DNA of 64,000 bases from Tsukamurella sp. 8F. Lineage in GTDB: Bacteria; Actinomycetota; Actinomycetes; Mycobacteriales; Mycobacteriaceae. Below are positions 334 through 59,419 of the stretch, piece by piece. The stretch's first letter is position 1; each line of letters starts with the position of its first letter. The translations under genes were made by a program, and so were the position numbers. A model generated the notes under the pieces. The model was not told where the DNA came from, did not search any database, and saw only the letters and a list, made by a program, of their open reading frames with translations. The DNA is taken from NCBI RefSeq assembly GCF_029167375.1, contig NZ_JARFTP010000003.1, positions 124,001 to 188,000 of the forward strand, written 5' to 3'.

Positions 334-1485
334 TCAGAGAGCAGATGTCGCCATCTCGGGGTGGTCTCGGCCATCGGCGTTCGGGGCCGTCCGCCGGGGT
401 GGGTCGGTCCGGTGCCGCAGCCGGCGGCCGGTCTCGGGGTCGAACAGATGGATGTCGGCCGGGGAGACGTCCAGCCGTATCACGTCGCCCGATCGGACAC
501 CGGCCGGGCGGGGCGTGCGGACCTGCAGCCGCGTGTCGCCGCAGCCGACGTGCAGAACCTCGTCACTTCCGAGGTTCTCGATCATCGTCACCGTTGCGGT
601 GATGGGACCGCCGGGATCGATCCGCAGGCGTTCCGGGCGGATTCCGACGGTCACCGCCTGCTCCCCGGTGTCGGGAGCGGGCGCCGCCAGGTCGAGCGGC
701 AACGCAATCCGATCCGCGTGTACGTGGACCCGCCCGTCGTGGCCGCGCGCCACTCCGTCGAACAGGCACATCGGCGGGGCACCGAGGAACCGTGCGACGA
801 AGGTCGACTCGGGGCGGTCGTACAGGGTGGTCGGCGTGCCGATCTGTTCCACCCGCCCAGCGTTGAGCAGCACGATCCGGGTGGCCATCGTCATCGCCTC
901 CACCTGGTCGTGCGTGACATACAGGAACGTCGTTCCGATGCGGCGGTGCAGGTCGATGAGCTCGGTCCGGGTCGCGGAGCGCAACTGCGAGTCGAGGTTC
1001 GAGAGCGGCTCGTCCATGAGGAACGCACCGGGCTGCTGCACCATCGCCCTCGCCAGCGCGACCCGCTGGCGCTGACCGCCGGAGAGGTCGGCCGGGCGGC
1101 GCGACAGGTAGTCCGTCAGTCCGAGCATCTCGGCGACGCGCGTGACGGCGGCGGCGATGTCAGCGCGCGATCGACGGCGGGCGCGCAGTGGGAAACCGAT
1201 GTTCTTCGCGACGCTGAGATGCGGGTACAGCGCGTAGCTCTGGAACACCATCGCGAGCTCGCGCTCGCGCGGCTGCGACCCGGTCACGTCGCGCCCGTCG
1301 ATCAGGATCCGTCCGCTGGTCGGAGTGGCGAGGCCGGCGATCATCCGGAGCAGCGTCGACTTGCCGCATCCGCTGGGGCCGAGGAGGACGACGAACTCGC
1401 CGTCGTCGATCCGCAGGTCGACCGAGTCGACCGCGGTCGCGCGGCCGAATCGTTTTGTCGCCGATACCAGTTCGATGGAACTCAC
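334..1485 (-). CDS. MalK/UgpC-type ABC importer ATP-binding protein
   Basis: This 383-residue protein is the ATPase of a carbohydrate-type (CUT1) ABC importer. It has Walker A GPSGCGKST, signature LSGGQRQRVALA, Walker B FLMDEP, the switch histidine in YVTHDQ, and a C-terminal regulatory region with the TOBE-type IGIRPE-like stretch (VGIRPERLRI). The length matches the MalK/MsmK/UgpC group. The start is GTG at 1485, overlapping the upstream hydrolase stop by 4 bases, so the two are translationally coupled. Together with the binding lipoprotein downstream it implies uptake of a sugar, polyol phosphate or glycolipid-like solute. The exact substrate cannot be read from the sequence. Confidence 0.9.
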   Translation of the reverse strand: MSSIELVSATKRFGRATAVDSVDLRIDDGEFVVLLGPSGCGKSTLLRMIAGLATPTSGRILIDGRDVTGSQPRERELAMVFQSYALYPHLSVAKNIGFPLRARRRSRADIAAAVTRVAEMLGLTDYLSRRPADLSGGQRQRVALARAMVQQPGAFLMDEPLSNLDSQLRSATRTELIDLHRRIGTTFLYVTHDQVEAMTMATRIVLLNAGRVEQIGTPTTLYDRPESTFVARFLGAPPMCLFDGVARGHDGRVHVHADRIALPLDLAAPAPDTGEQAVTVGIRPERLRIDPGGPITATVTMIENLGSDEVLHVGCGDTRLQVRTPRPAGVRSGDVIRLDVSPADIHLFDPETGRRLRHRTDPPRRTAPNADGRDHPEMATSAL

Positions 1486-2375
1486 GATCCGTTCGTACCT
1501 CGTTCTTCGCGCCCGGCGCCGTCGGCGGCCCGTACCCACGCCGTGACCTGGACGGCCAGCGCGGGTGAGTCCTTCAACCAGGCGAAATGGTCGCCGGCCC
1601 GCACGGGCGCGGCGCCGGACAGATGCCAGTGACTGATGGCGGCGACGGGCATCCGGCGCAGCAGGTACTCGACGGTGCTCTTCGGGCCGAGCGAGTCGTC
1701 GGCGAGCGAGATAGCCAGGACGGGCCGGTCCATCCGCGCCAGCAGGTCGTTGTACCGCCGCGTGCCGTCGCGCACCACGTACCGCCCGGTGAGGGCCTGG
1801 AGTGACCAGTCGATCATGACGCCGCCGGCCATTGGCGCCGGAATCGCGACACCGCCCGGCCAACGCCCGGTCAGCCGCGACACCGCACCGATCCATTGCG
1901 TCTGCGCCAGGATGATGGGTCGCCGGAGCAGATCGAATGCACGCCAATAGACCGTGCCGGTGCCGATGACGGCGATGCCGGCGATCTCGTCCGGGTGGGA
2001 CGCGGCGTACAGCAGTGAGAGCTGCCCACCGAGGCTGTGGCCGAAGAGGTACAGGGGCACACCCTCGAACCTGTCCCGGAGTGTCCCGACGATCGCGGGC
2101 AGATCCACCTCGAGCATCTCCCGGTAACCGAAGTCGTCGGCTTCCGCCAGTATCGGCCGGCTGTCGCCCTGTCCCCGCAGGTCGCATACTGCGGCGTTGA
2201 GTCCGGTCGCGGCCAGGGCTTCGGCCACCGGCAGATAGTGCTTGGCCTTCATTCCCATCGCGGGTAGGACCAGCACGATCGGTGTTCCGGGGTCGCCCGG
2301 CAGCAGCCGGACGGTGAACTCCGTGCCGTCGTCGGCGGATAGCGCGATCTTCTCGACGGTCCCGGCGGCGGTCAT
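1482..2375 (-). CDS. alpha/beta hydrolase (serine hydrolase/esterase)
   Basis: This is a 297-residue alpha/beta-hydrolase fold protein. The nucleophile elbow GHSLGG puts the catalytic serine at about residue 104; an oxyanion-region stretch VLPAMGMK lies near residue 37, and a late histidine in AGDHFAW can complete the triad. ATG at 2375 overlaps the stop of the hotdog thioesterase gene by 4 bases, and its own stop overlaps the ABC ATPase start, so three genes are coupled. It could hydrolyse an acyl ester or an imported lipid conjugate. The neighbours suggest lipid or acyl chemistry, but the family is too broad to fix a substrate. Confidence 0.8.
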   Translation of the reverse strand: MTAAGTVEKIALSADDGTEFTVRLLPGDPGTPIVLVLPAMGMKAKHYLPVAEALAATGLNAAVCDLRGQGDSRPILAEADDFGYREMLEVDLPAIVGTLRDRFEGVPLYLFGHSLGGQLSLLYAASHPDEIAGIAVIGTGTVYWRAFDLLRRPIILAQTQWIGAVSRLTGRWPGGVAIPAPMAGGVMIDWSLQALTGRYVVRDGTRRYNDLLARMDRPVLAISLADDSLGPKSTVEYLLRRMPVAAISHWHLSGAAPVRAGDHFAWLKDSPALAVQVTAWVRAADGAGREERGTNGS

Positions 2376-2926
2376 CGGCCGGACTCCGGCGCGCCGACCA
2401 CATCGCACACGTAGTCGAAGACGAACTTCGAGGTCACCACGTCGTCGCCGTCGAGGACGACCGCCTTGGCGGTCAGGTCGTGTCGGCCGCCGGCGGTATC
2501 GCCGAGCAGCTCGCGCAGCTCGCGCTCGTCGACGACTGCGACGGCTCGGACCGTCCCGGTCGCAGGACGCCGGTAGGTGACGGTGCTGGCGCGCAGCACG
2601 AGCCGCTCGACGGCGAACAGCCGCGGTGCGGCGGCACCCACGAACGCCAGCGCGCCGGCGATATCCGCTGCCGTGAATAGGGCTCCCGCATGCACGGTCC
2701 CCATGTGATTGACGACGCCGCCGGACGCTCCGAGCGTCACCACGGCGCGATCGGCGCCGATCTCGGTGACCTCCGTGCCGACCAGGCGACCGAACGGAAC
2801 GAGGTCCTGCGCCACCGAGCGCAGGTAACCGTAGTCCGGCGCGGCGTGGTCGAGTTCGGGAAACGCTGCGGCGAAGTCGGTGAGAACGCGACCCTCGCTG
2901 GGCGTCGACGAGATGTGGGTGGTCAA
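2372..2926 (-). CDS. hotdog-fold thioesterase (PaaI/DUF4442-like)
   Basis: This 184-residue single hotdog-domain protein has the active-site helix region NHMGTVHAGALFTAAD typical of PaaI/DUF4442-type acyl thioesterases. The start is TTG at 2926, chosen because a GGAGG site lies 5 bases upstream; longer in-frame extensions to 3109 would overlap the divergent reductase gene and lack this signal. It is the first gene of the - strand arm (thioesterase, hydrolase, ABC ATPase, binding protein), divergent from the lipid-tailoring operon across 173 bases that must hold both promoters. It probably cleaves an acyl-CoA or acyl-ACP thioester. It resembles the product of 4035-4571. Confidence 0.75.
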   Translation of the reverse strand: MTTHISSTPSEGRVLTDFAAAFPELDHAAPDYGYLRSVAQDLVPFGRLVGTEVTEIGADRAVVTLGASGGVVNHMGTVHAGALFTAADIAGALAFVGAAAPRLFAVERLVLRASTVTYRRPATGTVRAVAVVDERELRELLGDTAGGRHDLTAKAVVLDGDDVVTSKFVFDYVCDVVGAPESGR

Positions 2927-3099
2927 GGCTACCTCCGTTGGTCCGGTGTTCGGCCGGGCAAGCTCATTGTCGATACGCCGGCCGCGCCGGGCCCGCTCGA
3001 TAGTCATCCGCGATCGCGCGAACAGACTGCCGGCCCAGCGGCTGCGGAGAGCCCGGTCGTCGGCCACGGTTCTGGTGAACGCACCATCGAGGAGACCTT

Positions 3100-4038
3100 G
3101 TGCCGACAACGCAGATGACAGTCGTCGACCGTCGTGAACTTGCCAGCGACATAGTGGAATTCACCCTGAATCGGGCGGACGGGGGCGCCGTCGCCCCGTG
3201 GGCGCCCGGTGCCCACGTCGACCTCCACCTGCCGGGTGTCGGCGTCCGGCAGTACTCGCTGTGCGGCGACCCGGACGACCGCTGCCACTACCGCGTGGCG
3301 GTATTGCGCGAGTCGTCCGGACGAGGTGGGTCGGCGTACCTGCACGATCGCGTCGCTCCGGGAGCCACCCTCGACGTCTCCGCGCCGCGGAACAACTTCC
3401 CGCTCGTGCCGGCGAGTCGGTACGTGTTCGTGGCCGGCGGGATCGGGATCACTCCGCTCCTCCCGATGATCGAGGACGCGACGGCCCGCGGGGCCGACTG
3501 GCAGCTGTGGTTCGGCGGCCGCACACGCCGGTCGATGGCGTACACCGATCGGTTGCTCGTACACGGTGAGCGGGTTCGGATCGTGCCGCAGGACCGCGAC
3601 GGCCTGCTGCCGCTGGCCGAGATCCTCGCCGCCGGCGCACCCGGCACCCGGGTCTACTGCTGTGGACCCGAGCCGCTGCTGGCGGCGGCGGAGGCGCTCG
3701 CCGGCACAGGCGTCCTGCACGTGGAGCGGTTCGCCCCGCGCGCCTCGGACGATGCGGACGATGGATCCGACCGGGCGTTCACGGTGCGGCTGGCGCGTTC
3801 CGGGCTCACCCTCGACGTCGGTTCGGACGAGTCGATCCTGGACGTCCTGGAACGGGCAGGGGTCGCACCCATGACGTCCTGTCGAGCGGGAACGTGTGCG
3901 AGCTGCGAGACGACTGTGCTGGAAGGCTCTGTGCTGCACCGTGACTCGGTACTGACTGCGGTGGAGAAGGATGCCGGCACGTCGATGATGGTGTGCGTCT
4001 CGCGGGCGTACGGCGATCTGGTGGTGCTGGACCTGTGA
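3100..4038 (+). CDS. phthalate-dioxygenase-reductase-type flavoprotein with C-terminal 2Fe-2S ferredoxin domain
   Basis: This 312-residue electron-transfer protein passes electrons from NAD(P)H through flavin to a plant-type [2Fe-2S] cluster. The flavin-binding RQYSL motif (near residue 50), the NAD-binding GGIGITPLL and four cluster cysteines C261, C266, C269 and C299 (CX4CX2CX29C) are visible. This is the phthalate dioxygenase reductase/VanB layout. The start is GTG at 3100 with GAGGAG 5 bases upstream. It opens the ten-gene + strand operon and its stop overlaps the next start by 4 bases. It is the only evident reductase here, so it is the natural electron donor for the two P450s and/or the desaturase. 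Confidence 0.9.
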   Translation: MPTTQMTVVDRRELASDIVEFTLNRADGGAVAPWAPGAHVDLHLPGVGVRQYSLCGDPDDRCHYRVAVLRESSGRGGSAYLHDRVAPGATLDVSAPRNNFPLVPASRYVFVAGGIGITPLLPMIEDATARGADWQLWFGGRTRRSMAYTDRLLVHGERVRIVPQDRDGLLPLAEILAAGAPGTRVYCCGPEPLLAAAEALAGTGVLHVERFAPRASDDADDGSDRAFTVRLARSGLTLDVGSDESILDVLERAGVAPMTSCRAGTCASCETTVLEGSVLHRDSVLTAVEKDAGTSMMVCVSRAYGDLVVLDL

Positions 4039-4571
4039 GCTTCTTCGGGCAGGCATACGACCCGTTCGTGCCATACGGCGGTGAGTCGCCGGATTTCGAG
4101 CAATTACGGCGGGTCGCGAACGGCCTGGCACCCTTCACACAACACGCGGGAGTGACGATCACAGAGCTGGACCGCGAACGTGCAGTGGCCGACGTCCCCG
4201 GCGAGGTGAGGCTGCACAACCATGTCGGCACCGTGCACGCCGCGGCGCAGTATCTCGGCGCCGAATTCGCGGCCGCCGCGGCATTCGTGGGGAGCGCAGC
4301 GACGCACATCGATCGGATCGAATGGATGGTGGTACGCGACTCGCGTGCCCTGTTCCTCCGCCCCGCCGTCGGATCCGTTCGGGCGACGGCGTCGGTGGAC
4401 GCCCGAATCGCGCGAACGATCGGCACCCTTCCACAGCGGCACCGATTCGATATCGATGCGAAGGCGGTGCTGCGCGACGCCGCGGGCTCCGTCGTGGGAA
4501 AGGTCTTCTTCGACTACACATGCCAGACCAGGCCGGCAGAGAACCCTAGTAACGAGGTGACGACGAGATGA
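4035..4571 (+). CDS. hotdog-fold thioesterase (DUF4442-like)
   Basis: This 178-residue hotdog protein has the motif HNHVGTVHAAAQYLGAEFA, close to that of the product of 2372-2926, which suggests the two are paralogues. GTG at 4035 overlaps the reductase stop (GTGA), and its own stop overlaps the desaturase ATG, so it is coupled on both sides. The expected activity is hydrolysis of an acyl thioester, or a non-catalytic acyl-binding role as in some DUF4442 members. Its position between the electron donor and the desaturase suggests it acts on the same ACP-bound intermediates; that is inference. Confidence 0.75.
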   Translation: MSFFGQAYDPFVPYGGESPDFEQLRRVANGLAPFTQHAGVTITELDRERAVADVPGEVRLHNHVGTVHAAAQYLGAEFAAAAAFVGSAATHIDRIEWMVVRDSRALFLRPAVGSVRATASVDARIARTIGTLPQRHRFDIDAKAVLRDAAGSVVGKVFFDYTCQTRPAENPSNEVTTR

Positions 4572-5512
4572 TCCAACCGGCAGCGGCCGCGGGCGAGCCT
4601 CGCAGGAAGACCGTGAGCAATCCGTACATCCACAGACTGCAACGCCGCCATTTCCTACTGTTCGACGTGCTGCCCATCATCGGGACCGCGGTCGCCGTCG
4701 TGCTGGCGTTCGTGCATCCCATCAGCTGGGTCGACTGGGCTCTGCTCGGGGCGATGTGGCTACTGACCGGCCTGGCGATAACGGTCGGATACCACCGGCT
4801 GTTCACACACAGAACTTTCAAGGCCGCGCCGTCGGTCGTGGTGGTGCTCGCCGTTCTAGGGTCGATGGCCGCGCAGGGGCCGGTGATCTCGTGGGTCGCA
4901 CTGCACCGGCGACACCACGAGTGCAGCGATGCTGAGGGCGATCCGCACTCGCCGAACCTCGACGGCGATGGGTTGGTCGGGCGTATCCGCGGGCTCGCGC
5001 ATTCGCATTTCCTCTGGATGCGGCGACACGAATATCCGAACATCGTGCACTACGCGCCCGACCTCCTGAAGAACAGGCCACTGGTGCGGGTCGCACGGCT
5101 GTACAACTACTGGGTGGTGCTCGGTCTGGCGCTGCCCGCAGCGGTGGGAGGCCTGGTCACCTGGAGCTGGTGGGGAGTGCTGAGCGGCATGCTATGGGGT
5201 GGTCTGGTGCGGATCTTCGTGCTCGAGCACATCGTGTGGGCTATCAACTCGTTCCTACACATGTACGGGACCCGCCCCTACGCCTCGCGTGAGAACAGCC
5301 GCAACGGTGGGATATTCGCGCTTGTGACGCTGGGCGAGTCCTGGCACAACAACCACCACGCGTTCCCCGAGTCCGCATCGTTCGGACTCAACTGGTACCG
5401 CTTCGACCCGGGCTACTGGGTGATCAGGTCGCTGGAGGCCGTGGGGCTGGCGTGGGACGTGGGCCTGCCGACCGCCGAGCGACGCGCATCGAAGCGAATC
5501 GCCGCGAGCTGA
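4568..5512 (+). CDS. membrane-bound fatty acid desaturase
   Basis: This 314-residue integral membrane di-iron desaturase has three histidine boxes: HRLFTH (76-81), HRRHH (113-117) and HNNHH (260-264). Additional histidines at 221 and 231 are typical of the stearoyl-CoA desaturase/DesA3 class. Hydrophobic segments lie around residues 30-50, 55-75, 88-110 and 183-225. It would introduce a double bond into a fatty acyl chain using oxygen and two electrons. ATG at 4568 overlaps the upstream stop by 4 bases. The next gene is a stand-alone ACP and a fatty acyl-AMP ligase is in the operon, so acyl-ACP is a plausible substrate; acyl-CoA or phospholipid cannot be excluded. Confidence 0.9.
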   Translation: MIQPAAAAGEPRRKTVSNPYIHRLQRRHFLLFDVLPIIGTAVAVVLAFVHPISWVDWALLGAMWLLTGLAITVGYHRLFTHRTFKAAPSVVVVLAVLGSMAAQGPVISWVALHRRHHECSDAEGDPHSPNLDGDGLVGRIRGLAHSHFLWMRRHEYPNIVHYAPDLLKNRPLVRVARLYNYWVVLGLALPAAVGGLVTWSWWGVLSGMLWGGLVRIFVLEHIVWAINSFLHMYGTRPYASRENSRNGGIFALVTLGESWHNNHHAFPESASFGLNWYRFDPGYWVIRSLEAVGLAWDVGLPTAERRASKRIAAS

Positions 5513-5565
5513 GGCGCAGACCGGACGCCGCACGACACCACACCGATCAAGGAATCGAGGAAACC

Positions 5566-5868
5566 ATGACGTCTGAAGGAACCGCCGCCTCTCTCGGCAC
5601 CGGGGAGCCGTCCGCCGGCGAGCCGCCGGCGACCGCCGAGGAGATCGTGCAGTGGTGTCGGCTGTATCTGGCGGACCTGCTGGAGACGGCGCCCGAGAAC
5701 GTCGACCCGGACACGACATTCGATCGACTCGGCATCGACTCCGCACACGCGGTGGCACTGCTGATCGAGGTCGAGCAGCGATACGGGGTCGAGCTTCCGC
5801 CCGACGCGCTGTTCGATCACCCGACTTTGAACGCGGTGTCGAAGCACCTCCACGACAGGCTCTCGTGA
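5566..5868 (+). CDS. stand-alone acyl carrier protein
   Basis: This 100-residue carrier protein has the phosphopantetheine site GIDSAHAVAL, with the attachment serine at residue 59. An N-terminal extension of ~22 residues rich in Ala, Gly, Glu and Pro precedes the four-helix domain. ATG at 5566 follows a GAGG sequence; the 53-base gap before it is the widest in the operon. The stop overlaps the methyltransferase GTG. It is likely the scaffold on which the fatty acid loaded by the ligase at 8790-10556 is desaturated, methylated and oxidised. It is not the housekeeping fatty-acid-synthase ACP, judging by its DSA rather than DSL motif and by its neighbours. Confidence 0.92.
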   Translation: MTSEGTAASLGTGEPSAGEPPATAEEIVQWCRLYLADLLETAPENVDPDTTFDRLGIDSAHAVALLIEVEQRYGVELPPDALFDHPTLNAVSKHLHDRLS

Positions 5869-6755
5869 CTTCCTCCGAGACGATCCGAAGCGCACGCGCC
5901 GCGGCCATCCGGTACCACTACGACGTCGGCAACGACTTCTATCGGTTGTGGCTGGACCGGACTCTGAGCTACTCCTGCGCGATGCCGTCCGGGCCGGGGG
6001 AGAGCCTGGACCAGGCCCAGGAGCGCAAGCTGCAGGCCCACCTCGACGCGATCGACGTCCGCCGGGCCTCGCGGGTCCTCGACGTCGGCTGCGGGTGGGG
6101 GGCGGTACTCGCGCGCGCCGCATCCTATCCGACGGTGACCGAGGCCGTCGGACTCACCTTGAGTGCCGAGCAGGCCGCCTACATCCAGGGCATCAGAGGA
6201 GCGAAGACCGCTGTGCACGTGGTGGATTGGCGGGACTATCGGCCCGAGCGCGAGTTCGACGGCGTGATCTCGATCGGCGCCTTCGAGCATTTCGCTCGGC
6301 CCGACCAGACCGTCGAGGAGAAGCGGGCCGCCTACCGGGCGTTCTTCGAATGCTGTCGAGAATGGCTCATGGACGGCGGCGCGCTGTCGCTGCAGACGAT
6401 CGCCTACGCGAACATGTCGCCCGCCGACGCGAACGGGTTCATGCAGCGCGAGATCTTCCCCGATGCCGAACTGCCCACGCTGGCCGACATCGTCGCGGCT
6501 GCGGAGGGCCTGTTCGAGATCGAGCGGCTCGAGAACGGCCGCCTCGACTACGCGTGGACCTGCGCCCAGTGGGCGGATCGCCTGCGACGCACCAGACGGG
6601 AGGCGATCGAGCTCGTCGGCACCGAGACGGTCGAGAAGTACCTGCGTTATCTGTTGATGTCGTCGGTCGGCTTCCGGGCGGGCAAGATCTGCCTACTACG
6701 TATGGTGCTCCGGCCGTACCGCGTGGGTCATGCCGTCGCGGGGGCGGACCGGTGA
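5865..6755 (+). CDS. cyclopropane-fatty-acid-synthase-type SAM methyltransferase
   Basis: This 296-residue protein belongs to the CFA synthase/mycolic acid methyltransferase family. It has the N-terminal YHYDVGNDFYRLWLD block (residues 17-31), SAM motif VLDVGCGWG (71-79) and the GAFEHF motif (138-143). These enzymes methylate an olefin on an acyl chain, giving a cyclopropane, a methyl branch or a methoxy/methyl derivative. Here the double bond would come from the desaturase two genes upstream. GTG at 5865 overlaps the ACP stop, supporting use of an ACP-bound substrate. At ~296 residues it is closer in length to mycolic acid methyltransferases than to the ~380-residue E. coli Cfa. Confidence 0.88.
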   Translation: MTSSETIRSARAAAIRYHYDVGNDFYRLWLDRTLSYSCAMPSGPGESLDQAQERKLQAHLDAIDVRRASRVLDVGCGWGAVLARAASYPTVTEAVGLTLSAEQAAYIQGIRGAKTAVHVVDWRDYRPEREFDGVISIGAFEHFARPDQTVEEKRAAYRAFFECCREWLMDGGALSLQTIAYANMSPADANGFMQREIFPDAELPTLADIVAAAEGLFEIERLENGRLDYAWTCAQWADRLRRTRREAIELVGTETVEKYLRYLLMSSVGFRAGKICLLRMVLRPYRVGHAVAGADR

Positions 6756-8008
6756 GCGTCGGTGCGTCGCCGACGCGGTCCTCGCGGGCCGTCTTCAACC
6801 CGTTCGCAGCGGACTTCCGGGCCGATCCGTACCCGGCCTATCATGCTCTGCGCCAGTCTGATCCGGTACATCGCAGCCTCGGCACGTGGGTGCTCACCCG
6901 ATACGACGACGTGCGGCGTGTGCTGCGCGATCCGACCTACTCGTCGTCCCTGATCCCGCGGCTGGTGCAGCGGCGCGCCGACCGTCTCGACGAGCAGTCC
7001 CGCACCGATGCCGAACGGATCGTGCAGCTCGGTCGGAAGTCCTTGGTGTTCACAGACAATCCCGATCATGCGCGGCTTCGAGCATTGGTCAACCGACTCT
7101 TCGACAGGCGGAGCATCGATCGCCTGCGCCCCACGATCGGGTTGACGGCGCAGCGTGCTCTGGATGCGCTGACCCCCCGGATCGGTGCCGGGGTGGACCT
7201 GATCTCGACGATCGCGGGCCCGGTGCCGGTGGCCGTGCTGTGCGACTGGATGCAGCTGCCCACCGAGGTAACGCAGCACGTGAGCGACTGGACTCATGAC
7301 ATCCGCTACCTACTCGAGCCGGGCCTTATGCGCGAATCCGACTACGCCCGTGTCGGTTCGGTGGTCGGCGAGTTCACGGACGCGCTCGCCGAAGTGATCA
7401 CCCGGCGCACCACCCGGCCCGGCGACGATCTGATCAGCGAGCTGATCGCGGCGCGCGTGGGTGGGACGGACAGGCTCTCGGATGCGGAGCTCGCCCACAT
7501 CTGCGTGATGTGCTTCGTCGCAGGCACGGAGACGACCACTGCACTGATAGGGAACGCCGTCGTCGCGCTGCTGTCGAATCCGGGGCCGGCGGCTGCCGTT
7601 CGTGAGCGGCCCGAACTCGTCGAATCGGTCGTGCGCGAGACCTTGCGCTACGACAGTCCGCTCCAGATGACCAAACGCGAGGCGACCGTCGAGGACGTCG
7701 TCGGCGGCAAGACGATCCGACCCGGCGATCAAGTACTGCTCTGCCTGGCGGCGGCGAACCGTGACCCGAGTGCGTTCGATGAACCGGATGCGTTCAGGCT
7801 GGATCGTCCAGAGGAGAAGCATGTGGCTTTCGGCTACGGCCTGCACGGCTGCCTCGGAGCCGCGCTGGCCGAGACGACGGCGTGCGTGACGCTCGATCGG
7901 ATCCTCCGGACACTCGTCGTCGAGTCCGCAGGTGAACCGGAATGGCAGGACGACGGGTTCATCGTGCGCGGTCCGCGACGGCTGTCCGTGGTCGGGACCC
8001 GCCGATGA
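6752..8008 (+). CDS. cytochrome P450
   Basis: This 418-residue soluble bacterial P450 has the I-helix oxygen-activating AGTETT (257-262), K-helix ETLR (296-299) and heme loop FGYGLHGCLG with ligand Cys367. GTG at 6752 overlaps the methyltransferase stop. The open frame extends far upstream in a shadow frame, but the 4-base coupling and the P450 N-terminus fix the start. As a member of this operon it probably hydroxylates, epoxidises or desaturates an acyl chain, possibly while ACP-bound. Electrons could come from the reductase at 3100-4038. It is only distantly like the second P450 at 10999-12222, so two different oxidations are likely. Confidence 0.92.
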   Translation: MSVGASPTRSSRAVFNPFAADFRADPYPAYHALRQSDPVHRSLGTWVLTRYDDVRRVLRDPTYSSSLIPRLVQRRADRLDEQSRTDAERIVQLGRKSLVFTDNPDHARLRALVNRLFDRRSIDRLRPTIGLTAQRALDALTPRIGAGVDLISTIAGPVPVAVLCDWMQLPTEVTQHVSDWTHDIRYLLEPGLMRESDYARVGSVVGEFTDALAEVITRRTTRPGDDLISELIAARVGGTDRLSDAELAHICVMCFVAGTETTTALIGNAVVALLSNPGPAAAVRERPELVESVVRETLRYDSPLQMTKREATVEDVVGGKTIRPGDQVLLCLAAANRDPSAFDEPDAFRLDRPEEKHVAFGYGLHGCLGAALAETTACVTLDRILRTLVVESAGEPEWQDDGFIVRGPRRLSVVGTRR

Positions 8009-8793
8009 CGTCCACCGGTGAGCGTCCGCAGACATGGCTGCGATTGGAGAGCCGCGGAGTCGAGCGCTGTGCGGGGCGGGTCGTGGCCCTGCCGCACGCG
8101 GGTGCCGGCGCTGCATCGTTCGCTCGCTGGCGAGACCTGTTCCCGGCGTATGTGGACTTCGTGCGCGTGCGCCTGCCCGGGCGTGAGGAGGCGGCTCGGG
8201 AGAAGCCGCTGTCCAGTGTCGCCGACGCGGCGGCGGGACTGGCGGCACAGCTGGCCCGGCTGGACCACCTCCCCACGGTGCTGTACGGACACAGCATGGG
8301 AGCCCTGGTCGCATTCGAGCTCGCGCGCTCGTTGGCGGATCTGGGTATCCCGGCCACCCATCTGGTGGTGTCCGGTCGGCGTGCGCCGCACCTCCCGGCC
8401 AGCCGGAGGCTGATCCACACGCTTCCGGAGGACGAGTTCCTCGAGAGCCTCACGGAGATCGACGACGCCTGGTGCAGGATGACCGACACACCGGAGTTCC
8501 TCAGGTACGCACTCGATCTGGTGCGCGCCGATCTCACGTTCTGCGAGTCGTACCAGTACGGCGACGGGCCCACCCTGCAGATCCCCATCACGGTGTGTCA
8601 CGGCGGAGGCGATCCGCTGGTCGATCTATGGGAGGCGCTGGCGTGGGGTGAGCACACCGGAGGATCGTTCGGAACGCGGATCTTCCACGGCGATCACTTC
8701 TTCCACCAGCGGCACCGCGCCGCCATATCCGACGTACTCATCGCCGGACTGCGGGACACCGGTGCCACGGACACGGATCGAGGGTGCGAATGA
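8005..8793 (+). CDS. type II thioesterase (GrsT/TEII family)
   Basis: This 262-residue alpha/beta hydrolase is of the external thioesterase type found with PKS and NRPS systems. It shows the LPHAGAGAASF start (29-39), nucleophile motif GHSMGA with Ser97, likely Asp203 in GGDPLVD and His231 in FHGDHFF. Type II enzymes clear stalled or wrong acyl groups from carrier proteins or release products. ATG at 8005 overlaps the P450 stop by 4 bases and its stop overlaps the ligase start. A TEII next to a lone ACP, with no synthase module, suggests it proofreads or discharges this ACP. Confidence 0.9.
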   Translation: MTSTGERPQTWLRLESRGVERCAGRVVALPHAGAGAASFARWRDLFPAYVDFVRVRLPGREEAAREKPLSSVADAAAGLAAQLARLDHLPTVLYGHSMGALVAFELARSLADLGIPATHLVVSGRRAPHLPASRRLIHTLPEDEFLESLTEIDDAWCRMTDTPEFLRYALDLVRADLTFCESYQYGDGPTLQIPITVCHGGGDPLVDLWEALAWGEHTGGSFGTRIFHGDHFFHQRHRAAISDVLIAGLRDTGATDTDRGCE

Positions 8794-10556
8794 CTGCCTG
8801 CGGCATGTGGGGCGACGGGCGCGCCCCGATCACGGATATCCTCGCCGAGCGAGCGGCCACGACCCCGCATCGACGCGCGTACGTGTTCGTCGACGGGCAC
8901 GGCCGGGAGATCGAGGAGCTCACATACGGCGAGCTGTACAGACGCGCAGGCGCATTGGCCGACCGGCTCGCGGCGTCGTATCCGCCCGGCGAGCGCGCAC
9001 TGCTGGTGTTCGTGCCCGGCTTGAACTTCATCGTCGGCTTCTTCGCGTGTCTGTATGCGGGCATGGTCGCGGTGCCACTCAACCCCCCGGCACCGGCGCT
9101 CGACGGCGACGCGCCCCCGGCGGCGACTCGAGCCGTCGCGGTGGACTGCGCAGCCGCGGTGGTGGTGACGGACTCCGCGACACGTCAGTGGAACGGAGAG
9201 GCGGTCGACCGCATGACCGGACTCGGTCACGTGTCGGTGGACGAGATACCGCCGCTCACTCCGGGCGCCCACCCGGTGCGGTCCGACATCTCGCCGGATA
9301 CGTTGGCGTTCCTGCAGTACACGTCCGGATCGACCGCGGCTCCCAAGGGCGTGATGGTCGCGCACCGAAACCTGATCGCGAACCAGGAGATGATCCGCGA
9401 CGTGTTCGGCCACGACAGCGATTCGACAGTGGTGGGCTGGGCGCCCTTCTTCCACGACCAAGGCCTGATCGGGAACGTGTTGCAGCCGTTGTATGTGGGC
9501 GCGACGGCGATCATGATGTCGCCGTTGACCTTCATCCGGCGCCCGCTGATCTGGCTGGAGACGATCAGCCGATACCACGCCCGGACCAGCGGCGGCCCCG
9601 ACTTCGCGTTCGAGGCGTGCGTCCGGCAGGCGGGGCGTGAGGGCATCCGCGACGGGGTCGACCTGAGCCACTGGAAGGTCGCGTTCAACGGCGCCGAGCC
9701 GGTGCGCGCTGATACCGTCGCCAGGTTCTCGAAAACGTTCGGGCCGTATGGATTCGCGGCGACCACGATGTTCCCGTGCTATGGACTCGCAGAGGCCACG
9801 CTGCTCGTGACGGCATCCGGTGCCGGACGAGGGCCGCGCACGCGCCGGGTGGCGGTGGAGGATCTGTCGGCCCGCCGCTGGCGTCCGGCGGACGATGGGG
9901 TGGAACTGGTCGGCTCGGGCACCGCCGTACCGGGGACGACCGTGCTCATCGTCGATCCGGAGAGCCGGAGTCCGGTGGAATCGGACTGCGTCGGGGAGGT
10001 CTGGGTCTCGGGTGCGCAGGTGGCGCAGGGGTACTGGCGGCGTCCCGACCTCACGGAGTCGACGATGCGCGCCGAGATCGACGGTAACCCGGGTCGATCC
10101 TGGCTCCGCACAGGCGATCTCGGGGTTATGGACGGCTCCGGCGAGGTCTACGTCGTCGGGCGGATCAAGGATCTGATCATCATCCGGGGACGCAACTACT
10201 ACGCGCATGACATCGAGGCCACCGTTGCGGGCGCACACTCCGCGGTACGAGGAGGTGGGTGCGCCGCCTTCGCGGTCTCGGACGATGTGGGCGACGTCCG
10301 ACCGGCCGACGGGTCGGCCGGCGACGAACTCGTCGTCGTCGCCGAGATCCGGTCATCCGCGGAATGCGTCGAGCTCGCTGCGGTCGAGAGGGCGGTCCGC
10401 GGGGCGGTGATAGCCGCGCACGGCGTGACCATTCGGCACCTGCGGCTGATCGCCGCCGGACAGGTGCCCAAGACCAGCAGCGGCAAGGTCCGCCGGTCCC
10501 ACGCGAGGAAGATGTTCCACGACAGAGAGTTCGCCGCCGCAGAAGGAGCGCCGTGA
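8790..10556 (+). CDS. fatty acyl-AMP ligase (FAAL)
   Basis: This 588-residue ANL-superfamily enzyme activates a fatty acid as acyl-adenylate and passes it to a carrier protein. The ATP motif YTSGSTAAPKG lies at 177-187, followed by GWAPFFHDQGLIG, SGGPDFAFEAC and GLAEATLLV. Near residue 466 is the FAAL-typical GRNYYAHDIEATV. These features separate FAALs from acyl-CoA ligases. ATG at 8790 overlaps the thioesterase stop. It is most likely the loading enzyme for the ACP at 5566-5868. The chain length cannot be told from the sequence. Confidence 0.93.
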   Translation: MTACGMWGDGRAPITDILAERAATTPHRRAYVFVDGHGREIEELTYGELYRRAGALADRLAASYPPGERALLVFVPGLNFIVGFFACLYAGMVAVPLNPPAPALDGDAPPAATRAVAVDCAAAVVVTDSATRQWNGEAVDRMTGLGHVSVDEIPPLTPGAHPVRSDISPDTLAFLQYTSGSTAAPKGVMVAHRNLIANQEMIRDVFGHDSDSTVVGWAPFFHDQGLIGNVLQPLYVGATAIMMSPLTFIRRPLIWLETISRYHARTSGGPDFAFEACVRQAGREGIRDGVDLSHWKVAFNGAEPVRADTVARFSKTFGPYGFAATTMFPCYGLAEATLLVTASGAGRGPRTRRVAVEDLSARRWRPADDGVELVGSGTAVPGTTVLIVDPESRSPVESDCVGEVWVSGAQVAQGYWRRPDLTESTMRAEIDGNPGRSWLRTGDLGVMDGSGEVYVVGRIKDLIIIRGRNYYAHDIEATVAGAHSAVRGGGCAAFAVSDDVGDVRPADGSAGDELVVVAEIRSSAECVELAAVERAVRGAVIAAHGVTIRHLRLIAAGQVPKTSSGKVRRSHARKMFHDREFAAAEGAP

Positions 10557-11002
10557 TGTCCACAACCCATACCCCGCCGAATCCTCGTTACGCAGACGCC
10601 ATCCGCGCGGTGCTCACCACCATGCCGGCGGCGCGGTCGCTCGGCTTCGTCATCGCGTCCATCGACGCCGGCTCGGTGGAGCTGCGTCAAAGCATCAGAC
10701 CCGAGCTGACCGAGCACACGGGTCATGTTCAGGCCGGGATCCTCGGATCCCTGGCGGACTTCGCGGCGGGCGCATCTGCCGGCACCCTGCTTCCGGAGGG
10801 CTGGGTCAACGTGACGCTGGACTACACGATCAAGCTCGTGGCCCCGGTCGGCGGCGACGAGGTGATCGCTCGCGGCCGCGTCGTATCGAGCGGTAAGACG
10901 GTCTCGGTGGCCGCGGCGGACCTGCTCGACGAGTCCGGGCGCGTGTGCGCGACCGGACTCGCCACGTTCCGCAATGTGCGGATACCACAGGACCGCGGAT
11001 GA
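10556..11002 (+). CDS. PaaI-family hotdog thioesterase
   Basis: This 148-residue hotdog protein has the PaaI-type motif HTGHVQAGILGSLADFAAGA, with an Asp in the central helix that is usual for acyl-CoA thioesterases. ATG at 10556 shares one base with the ligase stop (TGATG), and an AAGGAG lies upstream. Its stop overlaps the last P450 start by 4 bases. It is the third hotdog gene of the locus but looks more like a classic PaaI enzyme than the two DUF4442-like ones. The expected role is hydrolysis of a CoA or ACP thioester of the pathway product or intermediate. Confidence 0.85.
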   Translation: MSTTHTPPNPRYADAIRAVLTTMPAARSLGFVIASIDAGSVELRQSIRPELTEHTGHVQAGILGSLADFAAGASAGTLLPEGWVNVTLDYTIKLVAPVGGDEVIARGRVVSSGKTVSVAAADLLDESGRVCATGLATFRNVRIPQDRG

Positions 11003-12222
11003 CGGAGACCCGATCCGACGGCCGCTGCACCCCGGACGTATTCGGCGCCGGATTCGCGTTCGACCCGCACCCGTCGTACGCCGCGATGCGAGCGACGACA
11101 CCGGCGTACCGGCATCCGCAGGGGTTCTGGGTGCTGACCAGGTATGCCGACGTTGCGGCGCTGCAGCGATCGGGACACTCGGTCGATGAGCGGAACCTGC
11201 GGCACATCCCCGACTTCAAGAGCGACAGCCGCACGCTCGGCACGGCGAACAGGATGATGTCGGGTCTGTCGATGCTGGATCGCGATGTGCCGGAACACGA
11301 TCGCCTGAGGGGTGTCGCGGCGGCGGCGTTCACCACCCGGGCGGTCGCGGCTCGCGCGGCCCGGATCGGCGAGTTGGTGGCGGAGGCTCTGGACCGGATC
11401 CAGGCAGTCGACACCGCCGACGTGATCGCAGAACTGGCCTTCCCGCTCCCGTTCACGCTGATCTCCGAGATCCTCGGCGTGCCTCCGGTGGCATCCGATC
11501 GCATGCGCGACCTGATCGCCGTGCTCGTACTGGGCCTGGAGCCGTCGTCGGACCCGACCCTGCAGGCACGCATCCGCGATGCGAACGACACGCTGACGGA
11601 CACGACCGCGGAGATGGTGGCCCGAAAGCGGGCGAACCGGGGCGACGACCTGCTGACCCGCATGATCGATGCGAGCGACGATGGCGTTCTCAGTGGGTCC
11701 GAACTGGTGGCGCAGGTGATGTTCCTGTACATCGCCGGGCACGAGACGACGGCGAACCTCATCGCGGGCGGGATCGCGACGCTGCTCGAGCATCCCGAGC
11801 AGGCGGGCTGGTTGCGTCGGCGGCCGGAGGCGGCCCCGAACGCCGTCGAGGAGATCCTGCGGTACGCACCCTCCGTGCACCTCATGCGGCGCATCACAGT
11901 CGAACCCTTGGCTGTCGCCGATCGGGAGATCCCGCCGGGATCCTTCGTGATCGGATCGATCGCATCTGCCAACCGCGACCCCGAGGTGTGGGGTCCCGAC
12001 GCCGGCGTGCTGTGTCTCGATCGACTCGACGCGCGGCGCCACCTGTCGTTCGGCGCCGGTGTACACCACTGTCTCGGCGCGGCTCTCGCCCGCGCGGAGG
12101 CCCGGTGCGCGCTTGTGGAGTTCGTACGTCGATTCCCGACGGCCGAGCCGGTCGACATGCAGTGGAACCGCCGGATCAACCTCAGAGGCCCGAGTGTCCT
12201 GACCGTGCGCACCGCGGCATGA
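10999..12222 (+). CDS. cytochrome P450
   Basis: This 407-residue P450 has AGHETT (246-251), EEILR (284-288) and heme loop FGAGVHHCLG with ligand Cys358. It resembles CYP families that act on macrolides, fatty acids or carrier-bound substrates. ATG at 10999 overlaps the thioesterase stop. It is the last gene of the ten-gene operon; the convergent thiD gene ends only 42 bases away, and no clear terminator hairpin was found in that gap. The substrate is unknown, and oxidation of the operon's fatty acid product is the simplest reading. Confidence 0.92.
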   Translation: MTETRSDGRCTPDVFGAGFAFDPHPSYAAMRATTPAYRHPQGFWVLTRYADVAALQRSGHSVDERNLRHIPDFKSDSRTLGTANRMMSGLSMLDRDVPEHDRLRGVAAAAFTTRAVAARAARIGELVAEALDRIQAVDTADVIAELAFPLPFTLISEILGVPPVASDRMRDLIAVLVLGLEPSSDPTLQARIRDANDTLTDTTAEMVARKRANRGDDLLTRMIDASDDGVLSGSELVAQVMFLYIAGHETTANLIAGGIATLLEHPEQAGWLRRRPEAAPNAVEEILRYAPSVHLMRRITVEPLAVADREIPPGSFVIGSIASANRDPEVWGPDAGVLCLDRLDARRHLSFGAGVHHCLGAALARAEARCALVEFVRRFPTAEPVDMQWNRRINLRGPSVLTVRTAA

Positions 12223-56244: not shown

Positions 56245-57305
56245 CACCGCATTTCATCCTCGCATCTGACGGCGAATCCCTACACGCGCGCGGTGTGGCC
56301 GCGACGTTCACCGAGCCTGCCGCGGCCGCAGCGGCGTTACGCCGCGGCCGCCACCGGATCGTGGTGGGCGCACTGCCGTTCGACCTCGAGGAGCCGGCCG
56401 CCCTCAGTGCGCCCGACACCTTCGGGTTCGGTCCCGGTGCGCCCGTCGCCTCGTCGGGTTCACTGCCTGCGCTGATGGTCGTGGGTGAGACCCCCTCCCC
56501 GGAACAGCATGTCGCACGGGTCGGGGAGTTGATCGAACGCATCCGGCGTGGCGAGGCCGACAAGGTCGTCCTTGCACGCGCCGTCGACTTCGCAGCGACG
56601 AGTGCGCTGGACACCCTCGCGATGGCATCCATGCTGGCGGCGAGCGATCAGGCGGGCAACGTATTCCACGCAGATCTGTCCGCGGCCGGCGACGCCCACG
56701 CAGGGCGGGTCCTCGTCGGTTCGAGCCCAGAGCTTCTGGTCCAACGGCGCGGACGTACTGTCGTGTGCCACCCGCTGGCCGGCACCGCGACGGAGCCGGA
56801 CGGGCTGCTCGAGTCGGCGAAGGATCGCGACGAGCACGCCTACGTGGTCGACGCGATCGCCGACGCCCTGGGCCCGCTGTGCGTCGATCTGGATGTGCCG
56901 CAGGCTCCGTCGCTCACGGCCGCAGGCGAACTCTGGCACCTTGGGACCGTGGTCCGCGGCACACTCCGCGACTCCGGAACGTCCGCTCTCGATCTGGCGT
57001 TGGCGCTGCACCCCACACCGGCGGTGTGCGGGTTCCCTCGTGTGTCGGCTGCCCAGCTCATCCAGGAGGTGGAGGGCCCACGCGGCTTCTACGCCGGGGC
57101 CGTCGGCTGGACCGATGCCGAGGGCGACGGCCACTGGCGGGTCTCGATCCGCTGTGCCGAGGTGGCGGAGGACCGGATGTCGTTGCGGGCGTGGGCGGGA
57201 GGTGGCATCGTCGCTGCCTCCGTTCCCGAGCGTGAACTGGAGGAGACGTCGGACAAGCTGCGAACGGTGCTCGGGCCGTTCGATATCGAGGAGTTGGTGT
57301 CGTGA
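56241..57305 (+). CDS. entC: isochorismate synthase
   Basis: This 354-residue chorismate-binding enzyme shows [52 protein letters not shown] and GFYAGAVGW, the usual EntC/DhbC/MenF signature. It commits chorismate to DHB synthesis. ATG at 56241 overlaps the isochorismatase stop and its stop overlaps the monooxygenase GTG, so the operon is tightly coupled. Confidence 0.93.
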
Positions 57306-58588
57306 GCGTGGACGTAGTGGATGTCGTCGGAATCGGCGCCGGCCCTTCGAACCTCGGGCTGGCCGCGGCGATCGATGAACGTAACCGTGCGGGCGGTGAA
57401 CCGTTGACCGTGCGGATCTTCGAGCGCAAACCGTCGTTCGGCTGGCATCCGGGGATGCTGCTCGACGGTGCGACGATGCAGATAGCGTTCCTCAAGGACC
57501 TCGTCACGCTGCGTAATCCGCGCAGCCCGTTCGGATTCCTGAGCTACCTCGAGGAGCGCGGTCGCCTGGTCGACTTCGTCAACCATCAGACGTTCTTCCC
57601 GACGCGCATCGAGTTCACCGACTACCTGGGCTGGGTGGCGGACAGTGTCGATGCCGGGATCGACTACGGGAGCGACGTCACACGTATCGACCGTTGCGAT
57701 GGCGGCGACGGCGCACGCTTCGAGGTGGCCGTGACCGGGCCCAACGGCGCCGAGGTGGTGCGTGCGCGTTCGGTCGTCGTCGGATCTGGTCTGCGCGAGC
57801 GGCTGCCGGAGTGGGCGTACGGACCGCGCATGTTCCACAACCACCGCATACTCGAGCATCTCGCGGCGCTCGACGTGCGCGACGAGTCGCCTCGTTTCCT
57901 GGTGGTCGGCGGTGGTCAGAGTGCCGCGGAGGTGCTGCGGCACCTGCACTCGGAATACCCGGCGGCGGTCGTGGAGTCGGTGTTCAACAGCTACGGGTTC
58001 CAGCCTGCCGACGACAGCCCGTACGCCAACCGGGTATTCGATCCCGACGCGGTCGACGACTTCTTCGGAGCCGCGCCGGCAGTGCGCTCCGAACTCATGG
58101 ACCGGCATCGGACCACGAACTACGGATGCGTGGACCTCGAGCTGATCCAGGAGCTGTATGCGATCGAGTACACGGAGAAGGTGCGTGGCCGCCGACGCCT
58201 ATGGATGCACCCCGTCACGGAGGTGATCGCCGCACGGGAGGACGGCAACGGCGTCGACGTCTCCGTACGGGAACGGCTCACCGGCGAGGTGTGGACTCGA
58301 CGCTATGCAGCGGTGGTGTGTGCCACCGGGTTCCGATCAGTCGGTGCATCGGAGGTGCTGGCGCACTGGCGGATCGCCGATAACAGCGTCACCGTGCGAC
58401 GCGACTACCAGCTGGCCGTGGACGGCGATCCCGTACCGGGACTGTACGTTCAGGGTGCTACGGAGGAGACACACGGTCTCGCGTCTACGCTGCTCTCGAA
58501 CATCGCCGTCCGCTCCGGCGAGATCCTCGACAGCCTGCTGATGGACGCACCGAGCACCGTCGCACCAGCCGGCAGCGAGAACGAATAA
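57302..58588 (+). CDS. L-ornithine/L-lysine N-monooxygenase
   Basis: This 428-residue flavin N-hydroxylase of the SidA/PvdA/IucD/MbtG family has FAD motif GIGAGPSNLGLA, NADPH motif VGGGQSAAE and the substrate/flavin-site VCATGFRS. It makes N-hydroxy-ornithine or N-hydroxy-lysine, the precursor of a hydroxamate iron ligand. The choice between Orn and Lys cannot be made from motifs alone. GTG at 57302 overlaps the entC stop by 4 bases. Confidence 0.92.
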   Translation: MSVDVVDVVGIGAGPSNLGLAAAIDERNRAGGEPLTVRIFERKPSFGWHPGMLLDGATMQIAFLKDLVTLRNPRSPFGFLSYLEERGRLVDFVNHQTFFPTRIEFTDYLGWVADSVDAGIDYGSDVTRIDRCDGGDGARFEVAVTGPNGAEVVRARSVVVGSGLRERLPEWAYGPRMFHNHRILEHLAALDVRDESPRFLVVGGGQSAAEVLRHLHSEYPAAVVESVFNSYGFQPADDSPYANRVFDPDAVDDFFGAAPAVRSELMDRHRTTNYGCVDLELIQELYAIEYTEKVRGRRRLWMHPVTEVIAAREDGNGVDVSVRERLTGEVWTRRYAAVVCATGFRSVGASEVLAHWRIADNSVTVRRDYQLAVDGDPVPGLYVQGATEETHGLASTLLSNIAVRSGEILDSLLMDAPSTVAPAGSENE

Positions 58589-58609
58589 CCCACCGAACAA
58601 GGAGAAGTC

Positions 58610-58858
58610 ATGTCTACCAACCCGTTCGATGACGAAAACGGCCGCTTCTATGCCCTCGTCAACGACGAGGAACAGTACTCGTTGTGGCCCACATTCGCTC
58701 CCGTGCCCGAGGGCTGGACCGTGGTGTTCGGCGGCTCCGACGGAGCGGGGCGGCAGGAGTGCCTCGACTACATCGAGCGGACCTGGACAGACCTGAGGCC
58801 ACGCAGCCTCCGCGAGGCGATGGCGCAGTCCGTGGGCGCCGCTGAGGAATCCCGATGA
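58610..58858 (+). CDS. MbtH-like protein
   Basis: This 82-residue NRPS activator has the family signature [19 protein letters not shown] and [18 protein letters not shown] complete. MbtH proteins bind NRPS adenylation domains and are often required for their folding or activity. Its presence is strong evidence that an NRPS belongs to this locus although none is inside the window. AAGGAG lies 7 bases before ATG 58610. Its stop overlaps panD. Confidence 0.95.
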
Positions 58859-59262
58859 GAAGGACACTGGTCAACGGAAAGATCCACAGGGCCACGGTGA
58901 CCAGGGCCGATCTCCACTACGTCGGCTCTGTGACCATCGACCAGACCCTCATGCGGGCCGCCGACATCGTCGAGGGTGAACGGGTGCAGATCGTCGACAT
59001 CACCAACGGCGCCCGCCTCGAGACGTACGTCATCACGGGCGAGCCCGACAGCGGCCTCATCTGTATCAACGGTGCGGCAGCGCATCTGGTCGATCCGAAC
59101 GACCTGGTGATCATCATGTCGTTCGTGGCGCTCGAGGACCACGAGCTGAAGGGGCACGCGCCCAAGGTCGTCCACGTGGACTCCGGCAACAGGATCGTGT
59201 CTCTCGGGAGCGATGCCGCGGAACCGGTGCCGGGGGCGGAGGACCAGCTGTCCTCGCGGTGA
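58855..59262 (+). CDS. panD: aspartate 1-decarboxylase (beta-alanine forming)
   Basis: This 135-residue pyruvoyl enzyme has the self-processing site YVGSVTID with Gly24-Ser25. Active-site residues Lys9, Arg54, Thr57, Tyr58 and Asn72 are all present, so it should be functional. It makes beta-alanine from aspartate, normally for pantothenate. Here ATG 58855 overlaps the MbtH stop by 4 bases inside the siderophore operon, far from any pantothenate gene. The likely role is to supply beta-alanine as a siderophore building block. Whether a second housekeeping panD exists elsewhere is not visible. Confidence 0.93.
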
Positions 59263-59315
59263 GTGAGCGCCGTTGCCGTTCGTGGACGTTCGACCTGGGA
59301 GCGTTGGAAGTTCGA

Positions 59316-59334
59316 TCAGCGTAGCCTGAGCCGG
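59316..59334 (+). promoter_or_regulatory. weak iron-box-like sequence
   Basis: TCAGCGTAGCCTGAGCCGG keeps the central TAGCCT core but matches only 11 of 19 consensus positions. It lies 85 bases ahead of the first ABC exporter gene, in the only sizeable gap (157 bases) of the siderophore operon, so a second iron-responsive promoter is possible but weakly supported. Confidence 0.3.
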
Positions 59335-59419
59335 CAGGTGTCGCCGACATGCCCCGTTGGGGCCGTGCCTGTCGTGTAGGAGTGTCACGACACGTGAGGC
59401 GCATATGCCGGAGGATTCG

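Follow-up and report, generated by a model that had tools for sequence, protein, structure and literature searches.

A 64,000-nucleotide stretch of the Tsukamurella sp. 8F genome (the window; positions 124001-188000 of contig C23, NZ_JARFTP010000003.1) carries ten tightly packed genes predicted to tailor fatty acids on an acyl carrier protein (ACP). It was found that five of them, encoding a membrane desaturase, the stand-alone ACP, a CMAS-type methyltransferase, a cytochrome P450 (P450a), and a fatty acyl-AMP ligase (FAAL), form a core whose order is kept in diverse bacteria. A set of genes resembling a polyunsaturated fatty acid (PUFA) synthase of the Pfa type lies on the same genomic island. 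The reading I favour, with somewhat more confidence than doubt, is that a horizontally mobile acyl-ACP tailoring cassette and the adjacent Pfa-type set jointly make one specialised lipid.

The ten genes and their conserved core

The ten genes lie on the plus strand at window positions 3115-12222 (Table 1), and Pfam and NCBIfam returned the families named in a preliminary description of this DNA. The successive gaps between them are -4, -4, +53, -4, -4, -4, -4, -4, and -4 bases. Thus, the overlapping layout stands as first described, with its only non-overlapping junction being the 53-base gap before the ACP, while the overlaps given as 1-4 bases are all of 4 bases (eight of nine junctions). 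The start codon of the first gene is more likely ATG at 3115 than GTG at 3100.

Is this gene set common in other bacteria? A scan of named genomes gave 389 relatives of the desaturase, and the best 80 of the 389 were taken as loci. They belong to Nocardia, Gordonia, Williamsia, Amycolatopsis, Pseudonocardia, Frankia and its relatives, Rhodococcus, Streptomyces, and Saccharopolyspora, and also to Mycobacterium simulans, Actinomadura, Actinomycetospora, Catellatospora, Pseudomonas, Ramlibacter, and some cyanobacteria. Downstream genes were counted at the 72 loci where the sequence continues for 6.5 kb or more beyond the desaturase gene, and eight loci that were too short were dropped. At 64 of the 72 loci, the desaturase gene is followed by the ACP, methyltransferase, P450a, and FAAL genes, and the order is the same in every one of the 64; the loci lacking the full set are L049, L080, L094, L095, L101, L104, L105, and L109. 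I judge this shared order to be well beyond chance. Pairwise distances among the five core proteins are also correlated (rho 0.65-0.85 over 60 rows, the best of 200 permutations reaching 0.34).

A search for all ten families in order, which the preliminary description had proposed as a check, found the complete arrangement at one of the 80 loci (L030, Gordonia polyisoprenivorans); it is the core that recurs. The reductase and the first hotdog gene are outside the core. An apparent count of 67 of 72 loci for the second P450 (P450b) was discarded, being due to cross-matches of P450a, and the resolved table was used instead (Table 1).

Within the family, the desaturase (E 1e-30 or better) was found in seven of 151 genomes, including that of strain 8F. 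The other six, designated by G numbers below, have kept the desaturase-ACP-methyltransferase-P450a-FAAL order. Five of these six (G010, G040, G143, G079, and G056) have genes for a decarboxylase dependent on pyridoxal phosphate and for a protein of about 200 residues without a Pfam match; the two were assigned with Pfam in G143 and G079, and by position and likeness in the others.

The cassette also occurs on megaplasmids of Rhodococcus opacus, Pseudonocardia alni, and Thalassospira marina. In R. opacus, the unannotated cassette is followed by LysR, FadD, FAD oxidoreductase, and SGNH homologues, while the P. alni megaplasmid has carboxylase genes and a type I polyketide synthase (PKS) near the cassette. 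A plasmid of Polaromonas JS666 has a FAAL gene, an insertion sequence, and desaturase, ACP, CMAS, and second desaturase genes directly before PKS genes; no P450 gene was found in the stretch read. As a separate observation, seven Nocardia and Amycolatopsis loci (L048, L055, L067, L069, L073, L075, and L077) have a further set of genes in common close to the cassette. It encodes an 88-residue ACP-like protein, two proteins with lengths near 265 and 178 residues, and a CMAS-like protein, and six of the seven loci also have a second FAAL-like gene.

The island and its Pfa-type genes

The ten genes had been described as an operon with no synthase. This is true inside the window only; PfaA-like, FabA-type dehydratase, and PfaD genes lie some 4-14 kb left of the window edge, and the lack of a synthase in the whole genome was rejected since this set stands beside the cassette in the same island. 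The PfaA-like protein scored 1427.7 bits against TIGR02813 (cut-off 1010.1), and PfaD scored 609.9 bits against TIGR02814 (cut-off 449.25). On the other hand, the KS-CLF and the two dehydratases of PfaC were not found in the PfaC-like protein O22, which has a single FabA-like domain and no KS-CLF. Tandem ACPs were not found in the PfaA-like protein, which gave one PP-binding match and has one GxDS motif.

The island spans about 32.7 kb (contig positions 103544-136264), holds all of these modules, and lies beside thiD. Its site was read in four of the five same-genus genomes in which thiC was located. In all four, the left-flank gene O13 adjoins thiD-thiC and the island is absent, a single 154-residue gene lying between them in one genome. 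Among 16 genomes of the genus (4.1-5.3 Mb, about 69% G+C), the desaturase gene was found in one and is missing from 15. Thus, it is likelier that the island was gained here than that it was lost in all the other relatives. The G+C content of the island (0.688) is close to that of its flanks (0.699 and 0.692), so the composition gives no sign of foreign origin. A comparison with viral contigs gave no relative of the desaturase.

Genome-wide co-occurrence of the cassette with Pfa genes was measured through PfaD. Among the 80 loci, 50 desaturase-carrying genomes were tested, including a few with partial cassettes (L080, L094, and L095), and PfaD was matched in 46 of them (threshold E 1e-40), with identities of at least 56% in 39 and of 44-53% in seven. 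Among 394 genomes sampled from the class, PfaD (E 1e-60; 48 genomes) is present in 16 of 18 genomes with the cassette-type desaturase (E 2e-138 or better, the next best hit being 1e-90) versus 32 of 376 without it (Fisher p 2e-14, uncorrected for kinship). In the family sample, the numbers are seven of seven versus 10 of 144 (p 6e-8, likewise uncorrected). The pfa genes and the importer of the island lie near the cassette in G010, G040, G143, and G056, while the pfa module of G079 is on another contig; the importer was not found in the fetched stretches of G065 and G079. In Pseudonocardia kujensis (L037), PfaA-like, PfaC-like, PfaD, three carboxylase-like genes, and the cassette up to the PaaI-like hotdog gene (HD2) follow one another on one strand, with every one of the 12 junctions falling within -7 to +4 bases. 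The carboxylase-like genes were taken to encode acetyl-CoA carboxylase subunits on visual inspection and from their resemblance to genes of an annotated plasmid. Loci L060 and L070 resemble L037 except for gaps called at 83, 41, and 96 bases, lengths that vary with the start codons chosen.

The tight linkage and the co-occurrence would also suit the opposite direction of transfer, in which the Pfa-type synthase makes and releases a chain that the FAAL and ACP recapture for desaturation, methylation, and oxidation. FAALs activate free acids, and in Pseudonocardia the pfa genes precede the cassette within a single gene run. However, the Pseudomonas and Ramlibacter genomes in which PfaD was not found have a cassette desaturase with 56-60% identity to that of the window, a hint that the substrate is an ordinary fatty acid, and the gene order in Polaromonas points to supply of a PKS. 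Both observations favour supply to a synthase over processing of its product, and I regard recapture as rather unlikely.

Several observations weigh against joint production of one lipid by the cassette and the Pfa-type set. The seven PfaD matches at 44-53% identity may be other ER-type proteins or belong to other systems, and the co-occurrence is partly due to shared ancestry. PfaD was not found in four of the 50 tested genomes, namely Actinomadura CNU-125 (L079), two Pseudomonas (L090 and L091), and a Ramlibacter (L106); thus, the hand-over to Pfa is not the sole use of the cassette. Pfa genes lie within the fetched flanks at only 18 of the 80 loci, the cassette and the pfa module are about 430 kb apart in G065, and in strain 8F itself a divergent ABC operon separates them. 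In addition, the type II thioesterase gene is present at just 35 of the 72 loci, no methyltransferase gene was found at L080, and the usual substrate of SCD-type desaturases and of CMAS enzymes is acyl-CoA or phospholipid. As for the earlier view of the operon as self-contained, the core does occur in two Pseudomonas genomes and one Ramlibacter genome in which PfaD was not found (other synthases were not searched for), while the Tsukamurella genome has a synthase in its island.

The remaining genes of the island are listed in Table 1. An Ugp-like ABC importer with a phosphoesterase is found near the cassette in five of the seven family genomes. Elsewhere in the window (57302-62943), lysine N-hydroxylase-like, MbtH-like, panD-like, and two exporter-like genes were seen by eye; they may mark the beginning of a siderophore cluster.

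Table 1. Genes of the island. Positions are those of the window, or of the contig where prefixed with C23. Counts out of 72 are loci with the gene downstream of the desaturase gene.
Feature	Position	Strand	Evidence	Occurrence and remarks
LysR	C23:105581-106489		read by eye	
FadD	C23:106676-108187			
FAD oxidoreductase	C23:108449-109630			
SGNH/GDSL hydrolase	C23:109627-110229			
PfaA-like KS-AT-ACP-KR protein	C23:110312-116452			C-terminal stretch is DH by eye only; Pfam gave no DH
FabA-type dehydratase (PfaC-like) protein, O22	C23:116449-118467			
PfaD	C23:118494-120047			
Two permeases, phosphoesterase, and solute-binding protein of Ugp-like ABC importer	C23:120198-124233	-		
ABC importer ATPase (Ugp/MalK-like)	334..1485	-	Pfam ABC_tran, TOBE_2	importer beside cassette/pfa genes in G056, G143, G040, G010
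Alpha/beta hydrolase	1482..2375	-	Pfam	same-neighbourhood homologue in G056, G143, G040, G010
Third hotdog protein (DUF4442)	2372..3067	-	Pfam	start uncertain; homologues in relatives; divergent, just upstream of the ten genes
2Fe-2S flavoreductase (2Fe-2S/FAD), presumed electron donor	3115..4038	+	Pfam Fer2, NAD_binding_1	7/80 named loci
Hotdog thioesterase-like protein	4035..4571	+	Pfam DUF4442	
Membrane desaturase, SCD type	4568..5512	+	Pfam FA_desaturase; His boxes	core
Stand-alone ACP	5566..5868	+	Pfam PP-binding	core; 68/72 loci
CMAS-type methyltransferase, Gln at catalytic His position	5865..6755	+	Pfam CMAS; alignment	core; 69/72 loci
Cytochrome P450a	6752..8008	+	Pfam; heme-Cys motif	core; 67/72 loci
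Type II thioesterase	8005..8793	+	Pfam Thioesterase	35/72 loci
FAAL	8790..10556	+	Pfam AMP-binding, DIP2-like C-terminal domain; FAAL insertion	core; 66/72 loci
PaaI-like hotdog thioesterase (HD2)	10553..11002	+	Pfam 4HBT	52/72 loci
Cytochrome P450b	10999..12222	+	Pfam	P450b-like (at least 52% identity) in 27/80 loci; last gene of the island, which ends 42 bases on, at thiD

The methyltransferase and a proposed pathway

The methyltransferase belongs to the CMAS family (PF02353, 213 bits; cut-off 27), while its active site departs from that of the known cyclopropane synthases. Cys35, Glu140, His167, Ile169, and Tyr232 of CmaA1 are the residues with a bicarbonate role. The window enzyme keeps four of them and has Gln in place of His167, and Gln stands at this position in all 66 cassette enzymes aligned from 66 loci. 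Gln is also found in 14 more of 17 further aligned sequences, which include Pseudomonas, cyanobacterial, Thalassospira, and Polaromonas enzymes; the other three are loci already counted. Cys35 is kept in 65 of the 66, and the second alignment has Ser in four of 17 and Phe for Ile in one. In contrast, His occupies the position in CmaA1, CmaA2, the Aquifex CFA synthase, and two paralogues of the strain 8F genome. Because of this conserved change, a plain cyclopropane is doubtful, the cyclopropanation step of the preliminary description is weakened, and membership in the CMAS family was not accepted as proof of a cyclopropane product.

What may be the product? UfaM, which also methylates unsaturated chains, makes 11-methyl-12-trans-octadecenoate and no cyclopropane (PMC7380195, in excerpt), and BfaB yields a methylene product (excerpts of PMC5660069). 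On the basis of the Gln residue and the UfaM product, a methyl-branched alkene is favoured. The residue alone does not predict the product, since His is retained in the BfaB-like paralogue L111 despite the methylene product of BfaB, while a third paralogue, L112, has Gln. L111 (C36:990-1802), whose methyltransferase has 33% identity to that of the cassette, is BfaAB/TmsAB-like, with the CMAS gene beside a flavin oxidoreductase gene by eye. L112 (C34:228424-229278) has Gly for Cys as well as Gln for His and a neighbour that is DUF1365-like by eye; it is possibly UfaM-like.

The FAAL has the insertion by which FAALs differ from acyl-CoA ligases; it is common to the FAAL 7r7f and absent in FadD O18. 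Its best solved relatives are FAALs, and the NCBIfam FAAL models match it below their cut-offs. The desaturase has SCD-type histidine boxes, invariant in seven aligned sequences. Both P450s have the heme-Cys motif, and P450BioI, which acts on acyl-ACP, is among the solved relatives of both, though not the closest one.

The only solved relatives of the desaturase are acyl-CoA desaturases. This would suit ordinary modification of membrane or envelope lipids, in which the desaturase and the methyltransferase act on phospholipid or acyl-CoA while the ACP and FAAL are needed for a different step, and CFA synthases, UfaM, and BfaB do act on membrane chains (in part from PMC7380195 and PMC5660069). 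However, the ACP gene stands between the desaturase and methyltransferase genes in 64 of 64 full sets, the divergence of the ACP is correlated with that of its neighbours (rho 0.65-0.75), and the methyltransferases form a distinct Gln-type group with 31-35% identity to the solved enzymes aligned. Modification of membrane lipids is thus a very improbable explanation.

The gene families fit ACP-based loading and tailoring, as had been suggested. For the loading of the ACP, the order of the steps, the hand-over to Pfa, and the product, I propose the following. The FAAL would adenylate a free fatty acid and load it onto the stand-alone ACP; an ordinary fatty acid is suggested by the similar desaturases of the PfaD-free Pseudomonas and Ramlibacter. 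The SCD-type desaturase would then set a cis double bond, and the Gln-type methyltransferase would methylate the olefin, giving a methyl-branched alkene (methylene or shifted) more likely than a plain cyclopropane. P450a, with electrons from the flavoreductase, may oxidise the chain near the methylated position, and P450b may add an optional further oxidation. The thioesterase and the hotdog proteins may edit or release the chain. Finally, the Pfa-type synthase would take the tailored acyl-ACP as a starter or as the second acyl part of the product.

A more specific version is unlikely. The Gln-type enzymes could be a CMAS clade for ACP-bound chains that makes a methyl-branched alkene, and the P450 could oxidise or cleave it on the carrier, as P450BioI does. 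The resulting oxidised or truncated chains would be starters of a new class, to be extended by a PUFA-type synthase. If true, soil actinobacteria would have PUFA-type synthases that use tailored fatty acids as starters. Since the core is small, is PfaD-free in Pseudomonas, and includes a methyltransferase with a changed catalytic residue, its direct expression and assay are feasible. Knowledge of the core chemistry would hint at what many uncharacterised clusters of Nocardia, Amycolatopsis, Pseudonocardia, and Frankia make.

Comparison with known systems

The gene set had not been recognised as a described pathway, and no description of the cassette was found in the openly licensed literature, among the matches listed (subscription journals and preprints being outside this scope). 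The main text of a FAAL review (PMC11837247, in part) has no mention of P450, PUFA, or cyclopropan-, and the excerpts of a survey of hybrid PUFA clusters (PMC13291983) have none of Gordonia, Nocardia, Actinomyc-, Actinobacteria, or P450. The cassette was not found in the excerpts of PMC3670865 and PMC4882568, nor were the active-site terms in PMC12089945.

Orphan PfaA-type clusters of actinobacteria have been published as secondary-lipid types A-T (PMC3098273, in part) and as the orphan pfaA cluster #11 of Nocardia (PMC4035055, in part); the tailoring cassette is unmentioned with either in these portions of the two papers. The island resembles such secondary lipid synthases in its PfaA- and PfaD-family proteins and differs in lacking a recognisable KS-CLF in its PfaC-like protein and in having a single ACP motif in PfaA. 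The iterative PKS RerA/RerB of Rhodococcus erythropolis PR4, which makes conjugated polyenes in E. coli, is also actinobacterial, with KS, AT, ACP, KR, and DH domains and a similar size. However, RerA has two ACPs, RerB is a PPTase-Y-TE protein, and no PfaD or tailoring cassette is described (PMC11563203). UfaM and BfaAB are CMAS-type methyltransferases giving methyl products other than cyclopropane, but they work without an ACP or FAAL, and UfaM acts on phospholipid chains (PMC7380195 and PMC5660069, excerpts).

Bacterial polyyne cassettes share the FAAL, ACP, desaturase, and thioesterase with the present one, and ten actinobacterial polyyne cassettes have a P450, whereas three desaturases and rubredoxin are among the seven genes common to polyyne cassettes and a CMAS methyltransferase is not (PMC8406139, as far as excerpted). 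The ten genes of the window include one desaturase and no rubredoxin. This difference speaks against the present cassette making a terminal alkyne in the manner of JamABC, with the desaturase as an acetylenase and the methyltransferase and P450 as add-ons. The FAAL-desaturase-ACP trio is functionally the same, and polyyne clusters with a P450 exist in actinobacteria (again from part of PMC8406139). However, a methyltransferase at 69 of 72 loci suits an olefin and not an alkyne, and an alkyne product is very improbable. Thus, the earlier suspicion that the cassette is something else than an alkyne cassette is supported by the methyltransferase and P450 being regular parts of it.

Joint production of a lipid with the Pfa-type set would join two orphan stories, that of the PUFA-type synthases of actinobacteria, which have no known product, and that of a mobile core for acyl-ACP tailoring, which is widespread. 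The likeness to JamABC/TtuABC noted at the outset is borne out, since the FAAL, desaturase, and ACP occur together in one gene set. In JamABC/TtuABC, too, a FAAL, a membrane desaturase, and a stand-alone ACP tailor an acyl-ACP for a partner PKS. Here, in contrast, a Gln-type CMAS enzyme and a P450 are regular parts, their genes and that of the thioesterase lie between the ACP and FAAL genes, and the usual partner is a Pfa-type synthase. By this analogy, the best reading is that the cassette works like a JamABC-type supply cassette with a different chemistry.

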